A DNA stretch of 37,546 nucleotides, taken from a virus. Shown piece after piece: positions 29,630 to 37,546 of this stretch (position 1 is the first letter of the stretch; each line of letters opens with the position of its first letter). Location: IMG/VR virus record IMGVR_UViG_3300045790_003109, positions 1 to 37,546 of that record; one strand, given 5' to 3'. The translations under genes were made by a program, and so were the position numbers. The notes below the pieces were generated by a model. The model had not been told where the DNA came from, searched no databases, and saw nothing but the letters and a program-made list of their open reading frames with translations.

Positions 29630-29715
29630 CACAGCCCCCAAACGCATTTGAAAAGCGCTATCCAAATTGAAAGCCCAAGTGCCGTCGAAGGCAAAATCCA
29701 CCACCCTTTGAACAT
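29629..29715 (-). CDS. Tiny Trp-rich hydrophobic peptide gene (candidate)
   Basis: 28 residues (MFKGWWILPSTALGLSIWIA...), nearly all hydrophobic. The ATG overlaps the stop of the gene before it (TGATG) and is preceded by GAGGAGG at good spacing; its own stop overlaps the next ATG in the same way. Such ordered overlaps are hard to get by chance, but the peptide is very short and has no known match. Confidence 0.4.
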   Translation of the reverse strand: MFKGWWILPSTALGLSIWIALFKCVWGL

Positions 29716-29960
29716 CACGCAGCCTCCTCTTTAGAAGTTTTGGGGCGGGGGATGTCTGAGGGCCATTCGAGGTCGGAGGGCCAAACTCTTGATAGGTGAT
29801 CAAAAGCTTTCTGGGCTGTTTTCAGCGTGCAGCCGTGCCCGTCACGTAATCGTTTGAACAGGCGCGCGTGTCCAACGCACCATGTTGAAATTGTCGCTTC
29901 TGATCGGGCCGAATGATTAGCTAGAGTTTCGGCTAGTTTTATGAGGTGTCTTTGTTCCAT
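29715..29960 (-). CDS. Ner/Cro-position small regulator candidate
   Basis: 81 residues, first gene of the early operon, divergent from the repressor. KLAETLANHSARSEATISTW could be a helix-turn-helix, and the tail WPSDLEWPSDIPRPKTS resembles small proteins common beside repressors in alphaproteobacterial prophages. By place it should act like Ner or Cro, turning down the early promoter and the repressor. The ATG lies only 7 nt after a candidate -10 hexamer, so the message may be leaderless. Confidence 0.62.
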   Translation of the reverse strand: MEQRHLIKLAETLANHSARSEATISTWCVGHARLFKRLRDGHGCTLKTAQKAFDHLSRVWPSDLEWPSDIPRPKTSKEEAA

Positions 29961-29967
29961 GGCTTAC

Positions 29968-29995
29968 TTTATGCAAATTTGCATTTTACTGTCAA
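29968..29995 (-). promoter_or_regulatory. Candidate early promoter
   Basis: On the minus strand a perfect -35 TTGACA (29990-29995) is followed by a 16-bp spacer and CATAAA (29968-29973, four of six to the -10 consensus). The palindrome at 29971-29984 covers the -10 and spacer, so a bound repressor would block polymerase. Confidence 0.55.
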
Positions 29996-30100
29996 TGTAA
30001 ATTTATATAATTATTGCAATGTAAATTTGCACTAATTTGGAATCAGACTGTTTCGCGCTAAGCTGCTTGTGCGTATTCGCGTTTTGGTGCAAATTTGCAC
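29971..30100. promoter_or_regulatory. Repressor operator array, four TGCAAATTTGCA-type palindromes
   Basis: Four copies of a dyad: 29971-29984 (perfect ATGCAAATTTGCAT), 29996-30007 (TGTAAATTTATA, degenerate), 30020-30031 (TGTAAATTTGCA) and 30087-30100 (perfect GTGCAAATTTGCAC). The centres of the first three are exactly 24 bp apart; the fourth is 68 bp further and abuts the repressor ATG. The set covers the early promoter and the repressor start, so it should control both. The match to the repressor is inferred from place. Confidence 0.75.
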
Positions 30101-30101
30101 A

Positions 30102-30788
30102 ATGTTGAATGCGCAAGAAATATATCAAAGACTCGAAGATCGACGTAAACTACTTGGCCTTAGTCAAGCAGAGGTTGGTTCACGAGCATTTGGAAAGGCT
30201 GATAATTCGGCACTTCAAGCGCTTCGAAAGGGATCTCTACCTTCTGCTGAAAAGTTGTATTTGCTTTGTAACGCAGTTGGCTGGGAGTTTTACTTTGGAC
30301 CGCCGCGCGACACAGTTGGCACAGAGCAACCGCCCGCCGCCGATCCACAAGAATTCGCCAACATTCCGCTGCACGAGGCCAGCCTTGCCGCTGGGGCAGG
30401 GGCTGCGAATGGTGCTGAGCCTATCGTGGATTACCTATCGTTCCGCCGCGACTGGCTGCGCCGCATCGGCACAGCCCCCGCAAACGCCGTGTTGGCGCGG
30501 GTCTCAGGTGACAGCATGGAGCCAACGATCTGGGCGGGTGACATGGTGCTCGTCGACAGGTCGAAAACCGTCGTCCCAGTCCGAACCAGCTCCAGCAAAA
30601 AAGGCCGCAGTGCAATCTACGCCGTGCTGGACGATGGCCACGCCCGCGTCAAACGCATCGAGCGCCCAAGCGAAGACCAAATCCTGCTGCTCTCGGACAA
30701 CCCCGATGTCACCCCCGAATTCTCCAACCCCAAAACGCTCTCTATCATCGGTAAAGTGATGTGGTGGGGGCATACTAATAGGGAATGA
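30102..30788 (+). CDS. S24/LexA-type phage repressor
   Basis: 228 residues from the ATG at 30102, which touches an operator; a GTG at 30069 in the same frame is possible, and neither has a clear ribosome site, so translation may be leaderless. The N-terminal helix-turn-helix (LLGLSQAEVGSRAFGKADNS) is followed by an S24 peptidase domain: Ser138 in VSGDSMEPTIWAGD and Lys184 in ARVKRIE form the catalytic dyad. Ala-Gly pairs at 97-100 are possible self-cleavage points, which would make the prophage SOS-inducible. It replaces the unrelated Mu c protein in function and is divergent from the early operon, as c is. Confidence 0.9.
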   Translation: MLNAQEIYQRLEDRRKLLGLSQAEVGSRAFGKADNSALQALRKGSLPSAEKLYLLCNAVGWEFYFGPPRDTVGTEQPPAADPQEFANIPLHEASLAAGAGAANGAEPIVDYLSFRRDWLRRIGTAPANAVLARVSGDSMEPTIWAGDMVLVDRSKTVVPVRTSSSKKGRSAIYAVLDDGHARVKRIERPSEDQILLLSDNPDVTPEFSNPKTLSIIGKVMWWGHTNRE

Positions 30789-30791
30789 GTT

Positions 30792-31772
30792 ATGTCTTGG
30801 TGGCAAAATTTATTTGGTAAACCTCATAGAGATGCACTCGAGCGTCCTACAACAAAGGGCCAACAAGTGCGAGTTTCGGAAACTGGGCGGGTTGCCAGAA
30901 TTCGAGATTTGAATTTCTCTGGTATCAGCTATTCATCATCAGATAAGCGATTTCGCATGATTTTGAAGGATAGTTTCGAAGGGCGTGGGGGGCATCGGTA
31001 TTCGGGGAATGGTCAATTCATGCTCCTAAAAGATGATGTTCCTGTTTATAAAGGGGAAATGGAGAGGCCTAGTGACGGATGTGTTGCCAACTCGGGGCAT
31101 GTAATTATTGCTGATTGGGGTTTCGGTGACGAATTACGCTCCACAATATATGTTATTTCACCATCGTCTGAAAAGTTGGTGGAGCATCGGCTCAACGCCA
31201 ATTGTACTGTTGTTGGAATTTCTGATTGTGGTCAAATTGCAGCCTGTCATACCGCAAACGCTCCTAACTCCGATGGTAACAAATTCACTGTTTTTGACAC
31301 AAAAAATGGGACAGTTATTTGTTGTTGTGAATTAGAAACTGGGTGGCCAAGCTCATTTGGTTTTGATATCGAGGCTGACCTCGTTCATTTAAATTTTTCC
31401 CATCCAGTAGAAGAAAGCTTTTCAATAACTACGCATGGCGACTTTGTAGACCGAGAGCAATGGATTGATTCAGAAATAGGGCGTGGAAACTTGCGCCTTG
31501 CTATGAAGTTATTAGGTGAATCTGTGCCTTTAAATGAAAAACGTAAGAGTGATGCACAACGTGCGGCTAAGGCTTGGGAATTGCTGTCTGAAAAAGACAG
31601 TAATAATTCCTACCATGCGGGAACATGGCGACTACACGGTGAAATCATGGAGGTTTTAGGTGATTTGCCAAAGGCGATGCGTTCGTTCAATATTGCATTG
31701 TCGCTTGACCCTAAGGTTGGTGTGAAAAGAAAAATAGCAGCAATGATGCGCTCCGGCATTGTTTCTGCTTAA
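30792..31772 (+). CDS. Cargo protein of unknown function with TPR-like C-terminus
   Basis: 326 residues, starting 4 bp after the repressor stop. The first two-thirds alternate short strands and turns (SGISYSSSDKRFRMILKDSF..., VVGISDCGQIAACHTAN...), suggesting a beta-propeller-like body. The last 70 residues (SYHAGTWRLHGEIMEVLGDL, KAMRSFNIALSLDP) fit one or two TPR-type helical repeats. It is far more AT-rich than the phage (22 G/C of 60 bases at 31381-31440, against 38 of 60 at 7201-7260), pointing to recent transfer. Being behind the repressor it could be expressed in the lysogen, the usual setting for prophage-encoded defence genes. I do not recognise the family. Confidence 0.72.
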   Translation: MSWWQNLFGKPHRDALERPTTKGQQVRVSETGRVARIRDLNFSGISYSSSDKRFRMILKDSFEGRGGHRYSGNGQFMLLKDDVPVYKGEMERPSDGCVANSGHVIIADWGFGDELRSTIYVISPSSEKLVEHRLNANCTVVGISDCGQIAACHTANAPNSDGNKFTVFDTKNGTVICCCELETGWPSSFGFDIEADLVHLNFSHPVEESFSITTHGDFVDREQWIDSEIGRGNLRLAMKLLGESVPLNEKRKSDAQRAAKAWELLSEKDSNNSYHAGTWRLHGEIMEVLGDLPKAMRSFNIALSLDPKVGVKRKIAAMMRSGIVSA

Positions 31773-31790
31773 CCCTTTCTGTGGTTTCGG

Positions 31791-31949
31791 AATGATGGCC
31801 ACACCCGCGCCAAAAGCATTGAGATGACAAGCGAAGACCAAATCCCGCTGCTCACCTACAACCCCGACTACACTCCCGAATTCGTAAACCCCAAAAGGCT
31901 CTCCATCATCGGAAAAGTGATGTGGTGGGGGCATACGAATAGGGATTGA
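31791..31949 (+). pseudogene. Remnant of a second, diverged repressor gene (3' end)
   Basis: 159 bp align without gaps to the last 159 bp of the repressor gene (30630-30788). The frame is intact and ends at the equivalent stop; by my count 39 of 52 residues are identical (shared ends SIIGKVMWWGHTNR). There is no start, helix-turn-helix or catalytic Ser, so it cannot act. The divergence is too large for a recent duplication. It is best read as the tail of an older, related repressor left after replacement. Confidence 0.82.
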
Positions 31950-31963
31950 GGTTTGTTTTGCCC

Positions 31964-33175
31964 TCACCCCCGATCAAAGAACCCCAAGTGCTCTTGCTGC
32001 TCACCATACTTGATGACGGTCTTGCCATACCGCAGATTAATGCGGTCTATGGTGGCAGACAGCGTTTCGCGTTTGCTGGTTTGCCCTGGTGCAAGCGGCA
32101 GGAAAAGTTCGCCGTTGCGCTCGCTGAGCAAAACGAGGTTCGTGAGGTTGATGCCGATCGATGTGGCTTGAGTGCGACTGCTGGCAAACTGCGCCGTGAG
32201 GGCGTCGAAGATATCCAGAAAATCACGGGTGTCTTGGCTTGGGTTGAGCGTTTGTTGCCAATGATGCCCGTGTCGTTTCCACAGGCCGATGTGGATGGAA
32301 ATCCGTCCCGCGCAATAGCCGTCACGCCGCATGCGTGCCGCTGCCCGTTCGACCAACCAGCGGCCAACACGGGTGGCCATTGGCGCAGGCCGATACTTTG
32401 GCGCGAGCACTTTGGATTGCCCGTAGGTGTTGCGCTGGGTTTCGATCAACGGGATGTCTTCGCCTTGCAACCCACGCACAAAACGCTCGCCCTCAACTGA
32501 GCGCCAAATCATGCGGGCGTGCCGTGGATCGAGCGCATACAGCTCATGAATGCCCCAGACGTGTGCCTTGCCCAAACGGGCGCTCATGCCGCGTGAAATT
32601 CCCGGCAAATCGTCCAGTTTGAGATGGGCAATGGCCTCTGGCATATTCTCAGGCGCGAGCCATTGCAGGCCGTCGGGTTTTTCCAATTTTCCAGCAATCT
32701 TTGCCAGCAATTGGTTTGGCCCAATACCAATCGAACAGCGCAGCTGACTGCCCACATCTTCACGGATGATCTTTTTAATGTCGCGGGCCAAATCCAGCGC
32801 GGCAGGGAGCGCACTGGTTCTGCCGCCAAGGGCGATTTGAAATTCATCAATCGAGCGTACCCGCTCCACTTCCGCGATGGTATCTATGGCCTTTGAGATC
32901 GCCTGATTGGCCCGCGCATAGAGCTTGTGACGGGCTTGCAGAAACACGATGTCAGGGCAAATTTGACGCGCTTCAGCAACGCGCATAATCGTTTTGACGC
33001 CTTGCGCCTTGGCCTCATAGCTGGCGGCTACAACAGCTCCAGCCCAATTGTTGTGCGGGCCGGTCTCAAGCGCAGTGATCGCCACAGGTCGCCCCCTGAG
33101 ACGAGAATCGACCTGTTGTTCAACGCTGGCGAAAAAGGCGTTCATATCCAGATATAGACAGCGCATCGGGGTCAT
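31964..33175 (-). CDS. Y-family translesion DNA polymerase (DinB/UmuC-like)
   Basis: 403 residues. Catalytic carboxylates are visible as Asp10 (CLYLDMNAFFASVEQ) and Asp110-Glu111 (RVRSIDEFQI). The middle has DDLPGISRGMSARLGK, the helix-hairpin-helix region, and the C-terminal little-finger domain follows. The last residues QEHLGFFDRG could be a sliding-clamp binding motif. It copies past damaged bases at the cost of mutations. It is divergent from a small gene across a LexA box and ends 14 bp after the repressor remnant. Whether it belongs to the phage or the host is open. Confidence 0.9.
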   Translation of the reverse strand: MTPMRCLYLDMNAFFASVEQQVDSRLRGRPVAITALETGPHNNWAGAVVAASYEAKAQGVKTIMRVAEARQICPDIVFLQARHKLYARANQAISKAIDTIAEVERVRSIDEFQIALGGRTSALPAALDLARDIKKIIREDVGSQLRCSIGIGPNQLLAKIAGKLEKPDGLQWLAPENMPEAIAHLKLDDLPGISRGMSARLGKAHVWGIHELYALDPRHARMIWRSVEGERFVRGLQGEDIPLIETQRNTYGQSKVLAPKYRPAPMATRVGRWLVERAAARMRRDGYCAGRISIHIGLWKRHGHHWQQTLNPSQDTRDFLDIFDALTAQFASSRTQATSIGINLTNLVLLSERNGELFLPLAPGQTSKRETLSATIDRINLRYGKTVIKYGEQQEHLGFFDRG

Positions 33176-33210
33176 AGCCTAAATCCTGTATCTTCCAAAA
33201 ACTGCTTAAT

Positions 33211-33225
33211 GTTCTATATTTGTTC
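33211..33225. promoter_or_regulatory. LexA (SOS) box GTTC-N7-GTTC
   Basis: GTTCTATATTTGTTC matches the alphaproteobacterial LexA site GTTC-N7-GTTC exactly. It lies between two divergent genes, 35 bp from the polymerase start and 2 bp before the ATG of the small gene, and so should repress both until DNA damage. Confidence 0.82.
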
Positions 33226-33227
33226 TC

Positions 33228-33533
33228 ATGGCTGATTTGAAAACACAATTGAAAAATGTCGCTTTTGGCGGCAGCTGGTCAGAAGAAATTCTGCGCGTTT
33301 CTGAATTGGAGACGGCGCTAAAAGTGATCGCAAATGCAGCGGATGATTGCACCGAAATCGACGTGCGCACGGATGAACTGAATGAAGCTCTGAGCTTTGT
33401 GGCGTCCAAAATAGAAAAAGGCCCTCAGCTGAAGGCGCAGTTTCTCAACGCTGTTGTGATCCAAGATCAGGATGCCCGAAGTTCTGCTGCTCGACAGGTG
33501 TTAGGGCAAATGCAATCTTGGGCGGGCCGATAA
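33228..33533 (+). CDS. Small SOS-controlled hypothetical protein
   Basis: 101 residues, not recognised. It starts LKTQLKNVAFGGSWSEEILR and is predicted all-helical with many charged residues; no membrane segment. The ATG is 2 bp after a LexA box and has no ribosome site, so it may be read from a leaderless message. Its divergence from the polymerase gene across one box suggests a partner in the damage response. Confidence 0.68.
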   Translation: MADLKTQLKNVAFGGSWSEEILRVSELETALKVIANAADDCTEIDVRTDELNEALSFVASKIEKGPQLKAQFLNAVVIQDQDARSSAARQVLGQMQSWAGR

Positions 33534-33734: not shown

Positions 33735-34301
33735 TTAACTTCCAACAGCCTCCTGCCATTCTATCAGCTTCTGATTAAAGAGCTCGTGGTTGAAGTCTTG
33801 TATATTAAATTCGCGAACTTCCCGCCCATTATCCCACGTTAAAAATGCAGAACGGATTGCCGAAATCGGCAGGTCACCAAGGTGCGCAGCCTCCAATGCT
33901 GGCAAGATGTTGTGACCGTGAAGTCCTTCTTTCCTCCACTTACGGAGTAGAGCAGTGGGTGACACCAACTGCTCACTCACAACTTCGCGTTCGATTTCAA
34001 GCCACACAGAACCTTGCCAGCTCCGAACATGTGGGACAAAGAAATGCCATGAGCTCGCCGGAAACTGCTTATCATAGCTCTCAGGATGGAACTCATCAAA
34101 GTCAAATAGGCTTATGCCTCCAATCGTTCTGGAAATTGGATAATTTTTCGGTCCATTGGCAGTATTTGACCTTTCTCGATCATCGATATCCGGCTCCACT
34201 AAGATTGCCCGAGATTCAACGATGGACAGCAAGCGGTCAGGATGGGAGGTGTGCCATAACCCGCCGTGAAGTCTGCCGTGCAGTTCGCCCATGGCCCCCA
34301 T
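33735..34301 (-). CDS. Hypothetical protein with possible ADP-ribosyltransferase-like N-terminus
   Basis: 188 residues from the ATG at 34301, picked for the strong AAGGAG site 7 nt upstream; the open frame reaches 34451 without one. The start, HGGLWHTSHPDRLLSIVESR followed by AIL, resembles the H-T-H...ILxxGxL opening of DarT/Tpt1-type ADP-ribosyltransferase folds, with SLFDFDEFHP and a later Glu-rich VWLEIEREVV strand. The catalytic residues cannot be assigned with safety. It lies next to the HEPN-AAA pair on the same strand, 245 bp downstream, and a TATAAT hexamer (minus strand, near 34485) could start its message. The 200 bp between it and the small SOS gene hold short GGTCAA repeats and no gene. 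Confidence 0.55.
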   Translation of the reverse strand: MGAMGELHGRLHGGLWHTSHPDRLLSIVESRAILVEPDIDDRERSNTANGPKNYPISRTIGGISLFDFDEFHPESYDKQFPASSWHFFVPHVRSWQGSVWLEIEREVVSEQLVSPTALLRKWRKEGLHGHNILPALEAAHLGDLPISAIRSAFLTWDNGREVREFNIQDFNHELFNQKLIEWQEAVGS

Positions 34302-34545
34302 TTTCAAGCTCCTTACGTGCCTCAGCATATATATGCGGTACCAATATAGTCGAGGTCGTTTTTCAGGTGCCATCAGTCGCGGCCCTAACCAGACTTTGGC
34401 ATTCTCACCATTGGCCGCAGCGCAGCGTCCGCGTTGCTGATGTTCGGTCATTTTACTGAAATAAGAGGCTTTTGGTCCAATTATAGCGAAAGGCAGATGG
34501 CGTTGGACGAGAAATGGGCCGCGGCAACAAAAACAAATTAATCGT

Positions 34546-36048
34546 CTATTCGCGAAGGATTGGTAGCTTTCTCAGTACTGCAGATGAAGAATCTTCGAAA
34601 GATTTATTGAATAATTCAACGCTTTGCGCTGCTCGGATACCAATGTACAGACCGTAGTCTAGAATTAAGGCTTGGTATTTTCTTCCCGCCTCATGGGGTG
34701 TAATTCCTTCACTAATCACGTGCAATAGCCGCAGTTGAACCAAGCTCGATACTTTCTGGAAAAGGTCTGACTTACTATCAATTTCTATCAAGAACGCGTT
34801 TTGCCTCTTTTCCTTGATACAGAATGTCTTGATCGTTTCTAAAGTTTCTTTCAGACCGTCGGCCTGTTCTGACGCATCTTGTTGTAAGTCTCTGAGCTTA
34901 ATCGTCAAAGTCTCCGATGCAGCTTGATTTACATTAGAAACAGTAACTCGCGCTCTATTTTCTACGTTTGCCTTCTGAATTGCTTGTGAAAATAGGTAAA
35001 TTGCATCACGTGGCACCCCGGCGGAGACCCAAGTCAGTCGTGGTAGAACGTCCGCAGAACTGCAAAGTCGCCTGATGTTCGAAAGTCCAGCGAACTTTGC
35101 GTGTGCGTCAAGGATAGCCTCAATATGCGCAGTCGTTTTATCTGGTGTAGTCAAATTGTAATCTAGGTGAATTGCTTGTGCATCATGCGGGAGCTCAAGA
35201 CCAATTCGCTCACTGGGGTCAAAAGTCCTAGTCAAGTTCTCGATTGCGCTGATCTTCAGAAATACTTGGTTCCCTCTCGAAAGTGAGTACAGAATGTCCA
35301 ACACTTTCGCTTGAAGTGGACGATCAAGCACATGGAGATCATCGATGTAAACAAAAATTTCTTTCGAGTTGGATAGCTTTTTAACCTCACGTCGCAATTT
35401 TGCTGCTAATTTCTTATACCCTTCGAAGCTTTCTTCGCAGGCTTCAATTAGGTTTTGAAGTTCCGAAAGTCGAGCGCTTTGCCCGAACTTCGATTCAAGT
35501 TCGATTAGAAAGTCACAAAGAACATCACCGATCGCAGCGTCATCGTCTCTTCTGGAATAGGTCTGAAAATCTAACCAGATTGAAGGTAGTCCCATTTCTT
35601 CTCTCAAAGTCAAACTGTACAAAAGCAGCATCGACTTTCCGGCTCCCCGCCGCCCGAAAACAATATGATTGGCTTTAGACACGATCTGTTCTTCGGCACC
35701 TGAAACAGTCGTCGTATAACGAGAAAGTAGCGCATCACCAAAACTATGCCTGTGGACAGTTTGACTTTCAGAAAGAAGCTTTAGCAGCAATCGGACTTCC
35801 GGTCCTGCAACGACCCGATCTCTAGAAACCTGCTTAAGAGTAGCAACAATACCATCATCGACGTCGCCGATGACTTCTACCGTAGCTTTGGCAAGGAGCT
35901 CAAAAAATCGCTCCTCGGGGCTGCTAACAAATATGACGATAGCATTTCCGGAAGATGTTGGCTTAAACTCATGGTCGAGTCCTGTTAGCCCTGATAAATT
36001 CTCAAACTTATCTTTAATCTCAAGAAGTTCAGTCTCTTCAATATTCAT
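34546..36048 (-). CDS. AAA ATPase, ORC/CDC6-like family, defence-type
   Basis: 500 residues. Walker A FGRRGAGKSMLL (Gly132-Ser139) and Walker B IFVYIDDLHVLD (Asp236-Asp237). The RRG.GKS.ML form is typical of ORC-CDC6-type and related STAND-like AAA ATPases often found with toxic effectors in defence islands. The N-terminal 110 residues look like a separate sensor or docking domain; the C-terminal part is helical. The gene overlaps the HEPN gene by ATGA and is AT-rich (23 G/C of 60 bases at 34741-34800). I infer that it senses a trigger or controls the HEPN protein. Confidence 0.75.
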   Translation of the reverse strand: MNIEETELLEIKDKFENLSGLTGLDHEFKPTSSGNAIVIFVSSPEERFFELLAKATVEVIGDVDDGIVATLKQVSRDRVVAGPEVRLLLKLLSESQTVHRHSFGDALLSRYTTTVSGAEEQIVSKANHIVFGRRGAGKSMLLLYSLTLREEMGLPSIWLDFQTYSRRDDDAAIGDVLCDFLIELESKFGQSARLSELQNLIEACEESFEGYKKLAAKLRREVKKLSNSKEIFVYIDDLHVLDRPLQAKVLDILYSLSRGNQVFLKISAIENLTRTFDPSERIGLELPHDAQAIHLDYNLTTPDKTTAHIEAILDAHAKFAGLSNIRRLCSSADVLPRLTWVSAGVPRDAIYLFSQAIQKANVENRARVTVSNVNQAASETLTIKLRDLQQDASEQADGLKETLETIKTFCIKEKRQNAFLIEIDSKSDLFQKVSSLVQLRLLHVISEGITPHEAGRKYQALILDYGLYIGIRAAQSVELFNKSFEDSSSAVLRKLPILRE

Positions 36049-36566
36049 ATTCTGCTCCTAAGGACCAATCCACGCTCATTGAGGTAGACCAAAGCGGTTT
36101 TCAAGAAATCACTCGTCAGCACTCCTGCATCAGCTTGCGAGATGAACAAGTCTCTGGCCCTTGCTGCATGATCGTAGTCGCATTTGTTCCGATCGTCTCT
36201 TAACTCCTTCAAGCGTGTACTGTAAGTTGCGCGGTCAGGGAAGTCAGTAGGAAGCTCACCTATCTTCTTGTGGTCTGATGAGTCTGTCGAATGCGACCCA
36301 TCAACCATATACCGTATCGCCTTGGAGCCATTGTAAGCGCCGTAATAGAACCTTGAGACGCGCTGTCGCCAATGCGTATTGTTTAAAGCATTGGCAAACC
36401 GGAAATGTGAGACACCCAGATCAAACATCGCTTTGGCCTGCAGCTTCTGTTGTTCATTGATCAGCTCGATCTGCTCAGGCTCTAAGAGGCCATCTAGAAT
36501 GCCAATCAATTTCTTTGGATTGCCAACTTTTAGAAAATCTTTGTGCACAACTGAGCCGTCTTCCAT
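36045..36566 (-). CDS. HEPN-domain protein, putative RNase effector
   Basis: 173 residues. Helical throughout, with the HEPN layout: SRFYYGAYNGSKAIRYMV (helices 1-2), then H99 and ELRDDRNKCDYDH, where Arg126-Asn127...His133 fits the R-x4-6-H RNase motif with an N next to the Arg. HEPN proteins cut RNA in many toxin-antitoxin and abortive-infection systems. It is the first gene of a two-gene operon with the AAA ATPase (ATGA overlap). The usual partner, a nucleotidyltransferase (MNT), is absent, so the ATPase may be the regulator. The start lacks a clear ribosome site. Confidence 0.72.
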   Translation of the reverse strand: MEDGSVVHKDFLKVGNPKKLIGILDGLLEPEQIELINEQQKLQAKAMFDLGVSHFRFANALNNTHWRQRVSRFYYGAYNGSKAIRYMVDGSHSTDSSDHKKIGELPTDFPDRATYSTRLKELRDDRNKCDYDHAARARDLFISQADAGVLTSDFLKTALVYLNERGLVLRSRI

Positions 36567-37339
36567 GTTAATCGCAAACTTTTATGCGGTTAGGGCAAGC
36601 GAGCGCCACAGGTCGATGGTGAAACAGTCTATCGCGAAGCGGAAAAGATCAACCAGTTTTTGCTGCCCGAACATTCCATTCAACTCTCAACCCTCTGTAT
36701 ACTTGTTCATTTCCCACGACGGGCATAAGATCTTTGGTGGCAATATCGCATTATGAATGTCTGCTTATCGCTGATGCTGTGAGAGCGATCGCTTAGCGCA
36801 GTGAATGTCCGCATTCCGCCCTTGATGTCGATCCTCGCACCTGACTAACCCAAAAACCTCTTTCCAGTTCATCGTTCGCCCATTCGTGCGAAAAATCATC
36901 TATACCTTTGATTGTGTTATGTTTATCTCTTTCTGGAAAGTGTGGGGCAAACTCGCAAGGCCTCTTTCCAGTTCAGATTGCATTTGTGACGCCGATTGCT
37001 AATTTAATCACCGTATAAATCGCCTCAAACCCCTTATTTAAAGGCCTATGACGCGGGCAGGAGGGTTTGCAAGTCTTGGTGTCGGCAAAGGTGCATCTAC
37101 CTTACATAAGGGCCATTATAGGCCTTGCTGCAGGACTCTATACGCAGCCAGTAGGGGGCTCTCTGTTTGTCGAATAGTCCTTATAAATAAGGCCTTTCAT
37201 CGCTTTATCCCACACATTCCCAGTTGTTCCCGCCTACTGCAGATTTCTTTGTCCCACTACACGCGTCGGCGGTCTTTGATTTAACGCCAACGCGCGGTTT
37301 CTGTCACTGCTGATATTGGTGCCACGGGACAGCCACCTA
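36567..37339. other. Non-coding stretch with short repeats
   Basis: No gene is supportable in these 770 bp. The stretch holds CTTTCCAG at 36860-36867 and 36964-36971 (inside a 14-bp direct repeat) with its complement CTGGAAAG at 36933-36940. It also holds three CCTTA...AAGG(G)CC dyads near 37031, 37100 and 37178. The HEPN promoter should lie at the left end. Confidence 0.5.
36796..36822. repeat. Host-type intergenic repeat copy
   Basis: Matches 15144-15170 at 24 of 27 positions. A weaker relative (minus strand, AATGTCCGC core) lies near 33595-33610. Confidence 0.5.
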
Positions 37340-37546
37340 TCAACTGATAAGTGCCGCCACAAACCGCTGTGCAAGGAAATCATACCCCGCGTCCAGATCA
37401 TTGACCAAATGCAGGCCATCGGCGAAAGAGCCGTTTGCAACCATCTCTGAGTAGCTCAACACGTCGAGCCAATTAAAGACGCTGGTGCGCGCAAGGCGTG
37501 CCTCATAGTGGACCTGTCCCGCTATCGTGCCGCTCCGATTACTCAT
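37340..37546 (-). CDS. Hypothetical protein at window edge
   Basis: 68 residues from an ATG that is the last triplet of the window (MSNRSGTIAGQVHYEARLAR...), so the gene may begin further out and be cut here. No motif or membrane segment recognised. It could be host DNA flanking the accessory block. Confidence 0.35.
   Translation of the reverse strand: MSNRSGTIAGQVHYEARLARTSVFNWLDVLSYSEMVANGSFADGLHLVNDLDAGYDFLAQRFVAALIS

Follow-up and report, generated by a model that had tools for sequence, protein, structure and literature searches.

The stretch of viral DNA considered here raises the question of how a phage repressor gene came to be followed by a foreign gene and then by a second, degraded copy of the repressor's own last codons. 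The window, that is, the whole of viral record IMGVR_UViG_3300045790_003109 with its 37,546 bases, belongs to a temperate Mu-like transposable phage of marine bacteria (Rhodobacterales). It encodes a MuA-type transposase (Pfam DDE_2, 1.7e-44, together with HTH_Tnp_Mu_2 and Mu-transpos_C) and a MuB-type ATPase, the pair that marks the phage as Mu-like by its matches to PHROG 310 and 296, along with a ParB-like gene and the repressor, and the transposase strand also carries a long run of further phage genes. The phage is related to Rhodobacter phage RC1 and to a prophage of Pacificibacter marinus F2R14 (G001:C8, locus L024), the nearest prophage, which has an 85% identical transposase; the DNA of the two is mostly 78–91% identical, and 67–71% at the tail end. 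The closest known related phages besides this prophage share the transposase, the ParB-like gene and the S24 repressor at 59–66% identity, have the left-end gene order of the window and, immediately after the repressor, a gene other than that of the window; they differ in having a single repressor tail and, in the stretch examined, neither the polymerase cassette nor the foreign gene described below.

The repressor, the foreign gene and the second tail

The repressor gene (30,102–30,788, plus strand) is recognized by Pfam Peptidase_S24 (6.5e-21) and by PHROG 4, transcriptional repressor (2e-39). Its S24 peptidase-like C-terminal part (30,285–30,785) has, like other S24 phage repressors in the alignment, conserved residues S138 and K184, which we take to be the catalytic Ser-Lys pair. 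For the N-terminal DNA-binding part (30,102–30,284) the Pfam search returned no HTH match; the PHROG 4 match spans residues 5–227, and a DicA model is matched weakly (0.007). Repeated TGCAAATTTGCA / TGTAAATTTGCA sites mark an operator region at 29,961–30,101, delineated from the sequence, a repeat search and the comparison with L024. The intact tail of the repressor, comprising the last 52 codons and the stop, occupies 30,630–30,788 on the plus strand.

Three nucleotides past the repressor stop begins an open reading frame of 326 codons (30,792–31,772, plus strand), here called the cargo gene, whose G+C content is 43.4% against 55.8% and whose product is TPR-like at the C terminus, as judged from a weak TPR match to PDB chains; structure prediction without an alignment gave a mean pLDDT of 33. 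The protein is about 30% identical to seven plasmid proteins, and on one of these plasmids the gene is arranged in line with an AbiE-type pair, with a CBASS gene close by. In Sphingobium, a plasmid-borne relative of the cargo gene shares what looks like a single operon with an AbiEii-type toxin gene, the two overlapping (L011, 6,263–9,008). The cargo gene had no match among defence families, and searches of phages, of viral contigs and of 395 family genomes yielded no relatives of it, the genome search having been run without a positive control. It combines, as a moron does, foreign composition with absence from relatives. A consensus scan detected neither a promoter-like site on the plus strand directly ahead of the gene nor a terminator-like site after it, and the gene is therefore classed as a repressor-linked accessory gene rather than a classical moron.

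The second tail, a pseudogene fragment at 31,791–31,949 on the plus strand, was delimited by repeat search, tblastn and codon comparison. Within 30,000–33,000 there is one long direct repeat, 30,633–30,799 against 31,794–31,960, which is 167 nt long, ungapped and 84% identical; over the last 52 codons the repressor and the fragment agree at 130 of 156 nucleotides (83%) and 39 of 52 amino acids (75%), and tblastn gives the match E = 3e-21. The resemblance is not due to chance, because the 52-residue fragment alone is matched by the Pfam S24 (1.7e-5) and PHROG repressor (4.5e-6) models. These comparisons bear out the original prediction insofar as it described an ungapped recurrence of the tail, at about 75% protein identity, after a 1-kb AT-rich gene. 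The fragment begins at repressor codon 177, six sense codons after the cargo-gene stop and, possibly by coincidence, in the reading frame of the cargo gene; it lacks a start and the catalytic serine. The relatives examined have one repressor tail each, so that the pattern named at the outset as speaking against a scar, with both copies in all relatives, was not encountered. When viral contigs were scanned for the tail motif, six were obtained, with one tail apiece, and the joint between the fragment and the polymerase gene is absent from all six.

Decay of the second tail and the immunity region

The divergence of the two tails had been taken as evidence of two related repressor lineages. To polarize the changes, the Pacificibacter tail served as third party, with four further functional tails for comparison. 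Of the 16 changes peculiar to the fragment, 12 are at codon positions 1–2 and 4 at position 3, compared with 3 and 10, respectively, of the 13 changes peculiar to the functional tails of the window and Pacificibacter (Fisher p = 0.009), and six of the fragment's changes fall on residues that are invariant in the six functional tails compared (A181, R185, R188, P189, S198 and D199). The fragment's own change, 0.10 per site, is close to the silent change that each functional lineage has accumulated since separating from the other (6/52 and 4/52 third positions), which implies that the tails were near-identical when constraint was lost. By this clock argument, which is rough and draws on few sites, the fragment would have lost constraint at about the time when the three tails separated. 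Its low protein identity is best read as the result of mostly neutral decay on its own branch, not as the sign of an old lineage. In the tail tree, the best topology unites the fragment with Pacificibacter at a support of 39/29, no branch is supported, and the AU test does not reject a grouping of the fragment with the repressor (p = 0.29), leaving a trichotomy of the repressor, fragment and Pacificibacter tails. As it comprises only 156 sites, the tree cannot separate tail duplication from replacement.

Replacement would mean that a diverged repressor lineage arrived together with the cargo gene and took the place of the resident repressor, so that immunity changed in a single step and the old tail was left before the polymerase gene. 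Several features of the fragment agree with such an origin: it has the Pacificibacter tail states DYTPEF and NRD, it matches the Pacificibacter tail at 135 of 156 nucleotides as against 130 of 156 for the window repressor, and the best tree, if weakly, joins it to Pacificibacter. Moreover, none of the nine bases peculiar to today's window tail is present in the fragment, which is therefore not a copy of that tail. The two phages also differ in immunity, with unrelated DNA-binding domains and operator-like sites (TGCAAATTTGCA versus AGCCTGTACAGGCTA types). However, the exchange responsible for this difference has borders of its own. The segments 29,712–29,783 and 30,285 onward are about 90% identical between the window and the Pacificibacter phage, and the exchanged block of operators and DNA-binding domain, 29,784–30,284 (compared with L024 7,668–8,114), is enclosed by this shared sequence; the immunity exchange is a clean one at the repressor's domain junction, away from the tail scar. 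The S24 part of the window repressor, at 89% DNA identity to Pacificibacter, is no more diverged than the rest of the genome (78–91%), the fragment's branch has no visible constrained period, and the relative that replacement predicts was not found among the loci examined. We consider replacement a possible but rather unlikely account. Likewise, a one-step change of immunity does not follow from the difference to the nearest relative, as the block exchanged is not the tail; that the cargo gene was gained and immunity changed in a single event is no more than possible, and no immunity replacement is required. What stands of the idea of an immunity-replacement scar is a recombination scar, with a rare foreign gene behind the repressor and a fragment distinct from today's tail; replacement of immunity through recombination in the tail is not supported.

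The left end of the phage and the accessory genes

Whether the scar lies inside the phage depends on where the phage ends. The left ends of relatives have TGTNNNNTGACA...CTGCA in common, and a weight matrix built from six of them places its top site in the window at 37,261 on the minus strand (score 18.3), ahead of a neighbouring end-like site at 37,331 (15.7) and the next site (9.5); the right end and the host flank are outside the record. The predicted left end (TGTAGTGGGACAAAGAAATCTGCAG..., 37,217–37,261, minus strand) has a counterpart in G001:C25, a second left arm with the same end and, 5.3 kb inwards, a 442-bp polymerase fragment oriented as in the window. Position 37,261 is thus predicted to act as the phage left end, and with the end there, the scar lies inside the phage, in an accessory region between the repressor and the left end. 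Just outside predicted left ends, end-like motifs occur back to back or no more than about 70 bp apart (window 37,262–37,546; G001:C25, L101, 300–960; L082 9,393–9,398; L086 735–740), as though these phages integrated next to the ends of other phages or were fused to them.

Behind the second tail lies a Y-family DNA polymerase gene (31,964–33,175, minus strand; Pfam IMS 6e-37), which is convergent to the repressor rather than in line with it and has a 101-aa partner gene (33,228–33,533, plus strand) as its neighbour, as in L013 and L014. The two form a mobile cassette: Pacificibacter genomes contain full and truncated polymerase copies at different sites, most of which begin at a common 3' border near window 31,949–31,968, and no repressor tail was found beside the polymerase copies in Pacificibacter. 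Many truncated copies (of window 31,960–33,533) are in unrelated places (L039, L042, L046, L047, L052, L053, L056, L060 and L062). Further accessory genes on the minus strand (33,735–36,566) encode an unknown protein of 238 aa, an AAA+ ORC-CDC6-like protein of 500 aa and an unknown protein of 173 aa. The 500-aa protein, which is also Sll1717-like, and the 173-aa protein are encoded by genes that overlap by 4 bp (34,546–36,566) and are possibly a defence pair; PADLOC returned no match for them. A dispersed intergenic repeat, CTGCGCATAGCTGACCTTGATGGCTGACGCAGC and variants, is present at accessory-gene borders (window 33,560; L043 1,421; L053 1,474; L024 8,663; L084 1,886) and may help to shuffle accessory genes.

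In the nearest relative, which has one tail, 82 bp separate the repressor from a convergent membrane-protein gene, which is present elsewhere in the genome as well; the contig breaks there, its edge (G001 C8) being a repeat common to C63, and C8 could not be joined to C25. The expected arrangement of an old-type repressor directly before the polymerase gene was not seen among the loci examined, although it may exist in the second left arm, G001:C25, whose sequence stops 27 bp past the polymerase fragment.

Since the Pacificibacter homology starts at 31,960, it was suspected that the polymerase gene is host DNA and that the phage ends at the second tail, a reading dropped in view of the left-end motif at 37,261 and the same end with a polymerase fragment in G001:C25. 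A related idea is that the tail and the polymerase gene are remnants of a second phage or of nested prophages, belonging to an older element that this phage later entered. The start of the homology between the cassette and bacterial loci at about 31,960, right behind the second tail, would fit this, as would the right-arm-like sequence outside the left end (37,262–37,546), but the best left-end match lies past the polymerase gene, there is no left-end motif between the cargo gene and the second tail, and in G001:C25 a polymerase fragment accompanies the same left end with matching orientation and spacing, so that a nested element seems very improbable. It is harder still to credit an assembly artefact joining the sequences of two strains. 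The arrangement is known from a single record, no second one with the same joints having been found; yet the second tail is decayed and differs from the intact tail by 17% in DNA, which leaves no overlap for a false join, and polymerase and left end are found together in another genome too.

Probable gene gain behind the repressor

In about 15–17 of 21 relatives, two of the frames (L026 and L028) being doubtful as genes, a same-strand reading frame starts between −4 and +22 nt from the repressor stop. The genes in this slot differ between phages and are of several unrelated kinds. A comparison of 22 repressor ends revealed that the final codons commonly carry AGGGA or AAGGAG, which resemble Shine-Dalgarno sequences; in the window, AATAGGGAATGA (30,774–30,788, plus strand) within the last codons of the repressor would serve the next gene. 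As the cargo gene occupies the slot, its gain as a repressor-linked gene is well supported, and it would be read in the lysogen from the repressor transcript.

On the basis of these data, we think it probable that insertion of a moron gene left or duplicated a near-identical repressor tail, which then decayed. The stretch from the repressor to the left end is a variable accessory region, in which the site directly behind the repressor is a slot that receives genes which would be made along with it in the lysogen. The foreign 326-aa gene would have entered this slot by recombination: the exchange would have had one end within, or close to, the conserved C-terminal sequence of the repressor, and at its other end codon 177 of a near-identical resident repressor copy would have become joined to the foreign gene. 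In this way a truncated tail would have remained, or been duplicated, with the new gene on one side and the older accessory genes, from the polymerase cassette onward, on the other; having no start and no catalytic serine, it has decayed neutrally since. Among the relatives, no intermediates with one tail and this cargo gene, or with the old repressor before the polymerase gene, were found. A bolder extension, which we regard as improbable, is that the repressor tail is a reusable docking site offering both crossover homology and, in its last codons, a ribosome-binding site for whichever gene comes next, so that new lysogenic genes would be stacked behind the repressor by recombination tail to tail with a remnant for each, the window providing the first visible one.

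Accessory genes that adjoin the repressor and are expressed in the lysogen have been described for lambda (rexAB) and BTP1 (bstA) (PMC8585504), for Gordonia phage CarolAnn (genes 43–44; PMC6426606) and for phage Fc02 (e4 behind repc; PMC9936078), and the repressor-adjoining site of cI-type loci has been described as a hotspot of mosaic diversity (PMC8585504). The cargo gene resembles these genes in its position; a leftover repressor tail is found in the window and is not part of what these accounts, as cited here, describe for rexAB, bstA, CarolAnn 43–44 or e4.

The scar is an old one and a case of ordinary phage mosaicism. It is instructive, and the decayed tail is a rare trace of gene gain whose age can be gauged. 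It also cautions that a truncated copy may be low in protein identity without representing an old, separate lineage. If tail-guided stacking of genes were true in general, the importance of the finding would be raised. For the Mu-like phages of marine Rhodobacterales, the locus points to a site of gene gain directly behind the repressor, where a ribosome-site-like sequence lies within the repressor's own last codons and where the genes gained are likely to be expressed in the lysogen.
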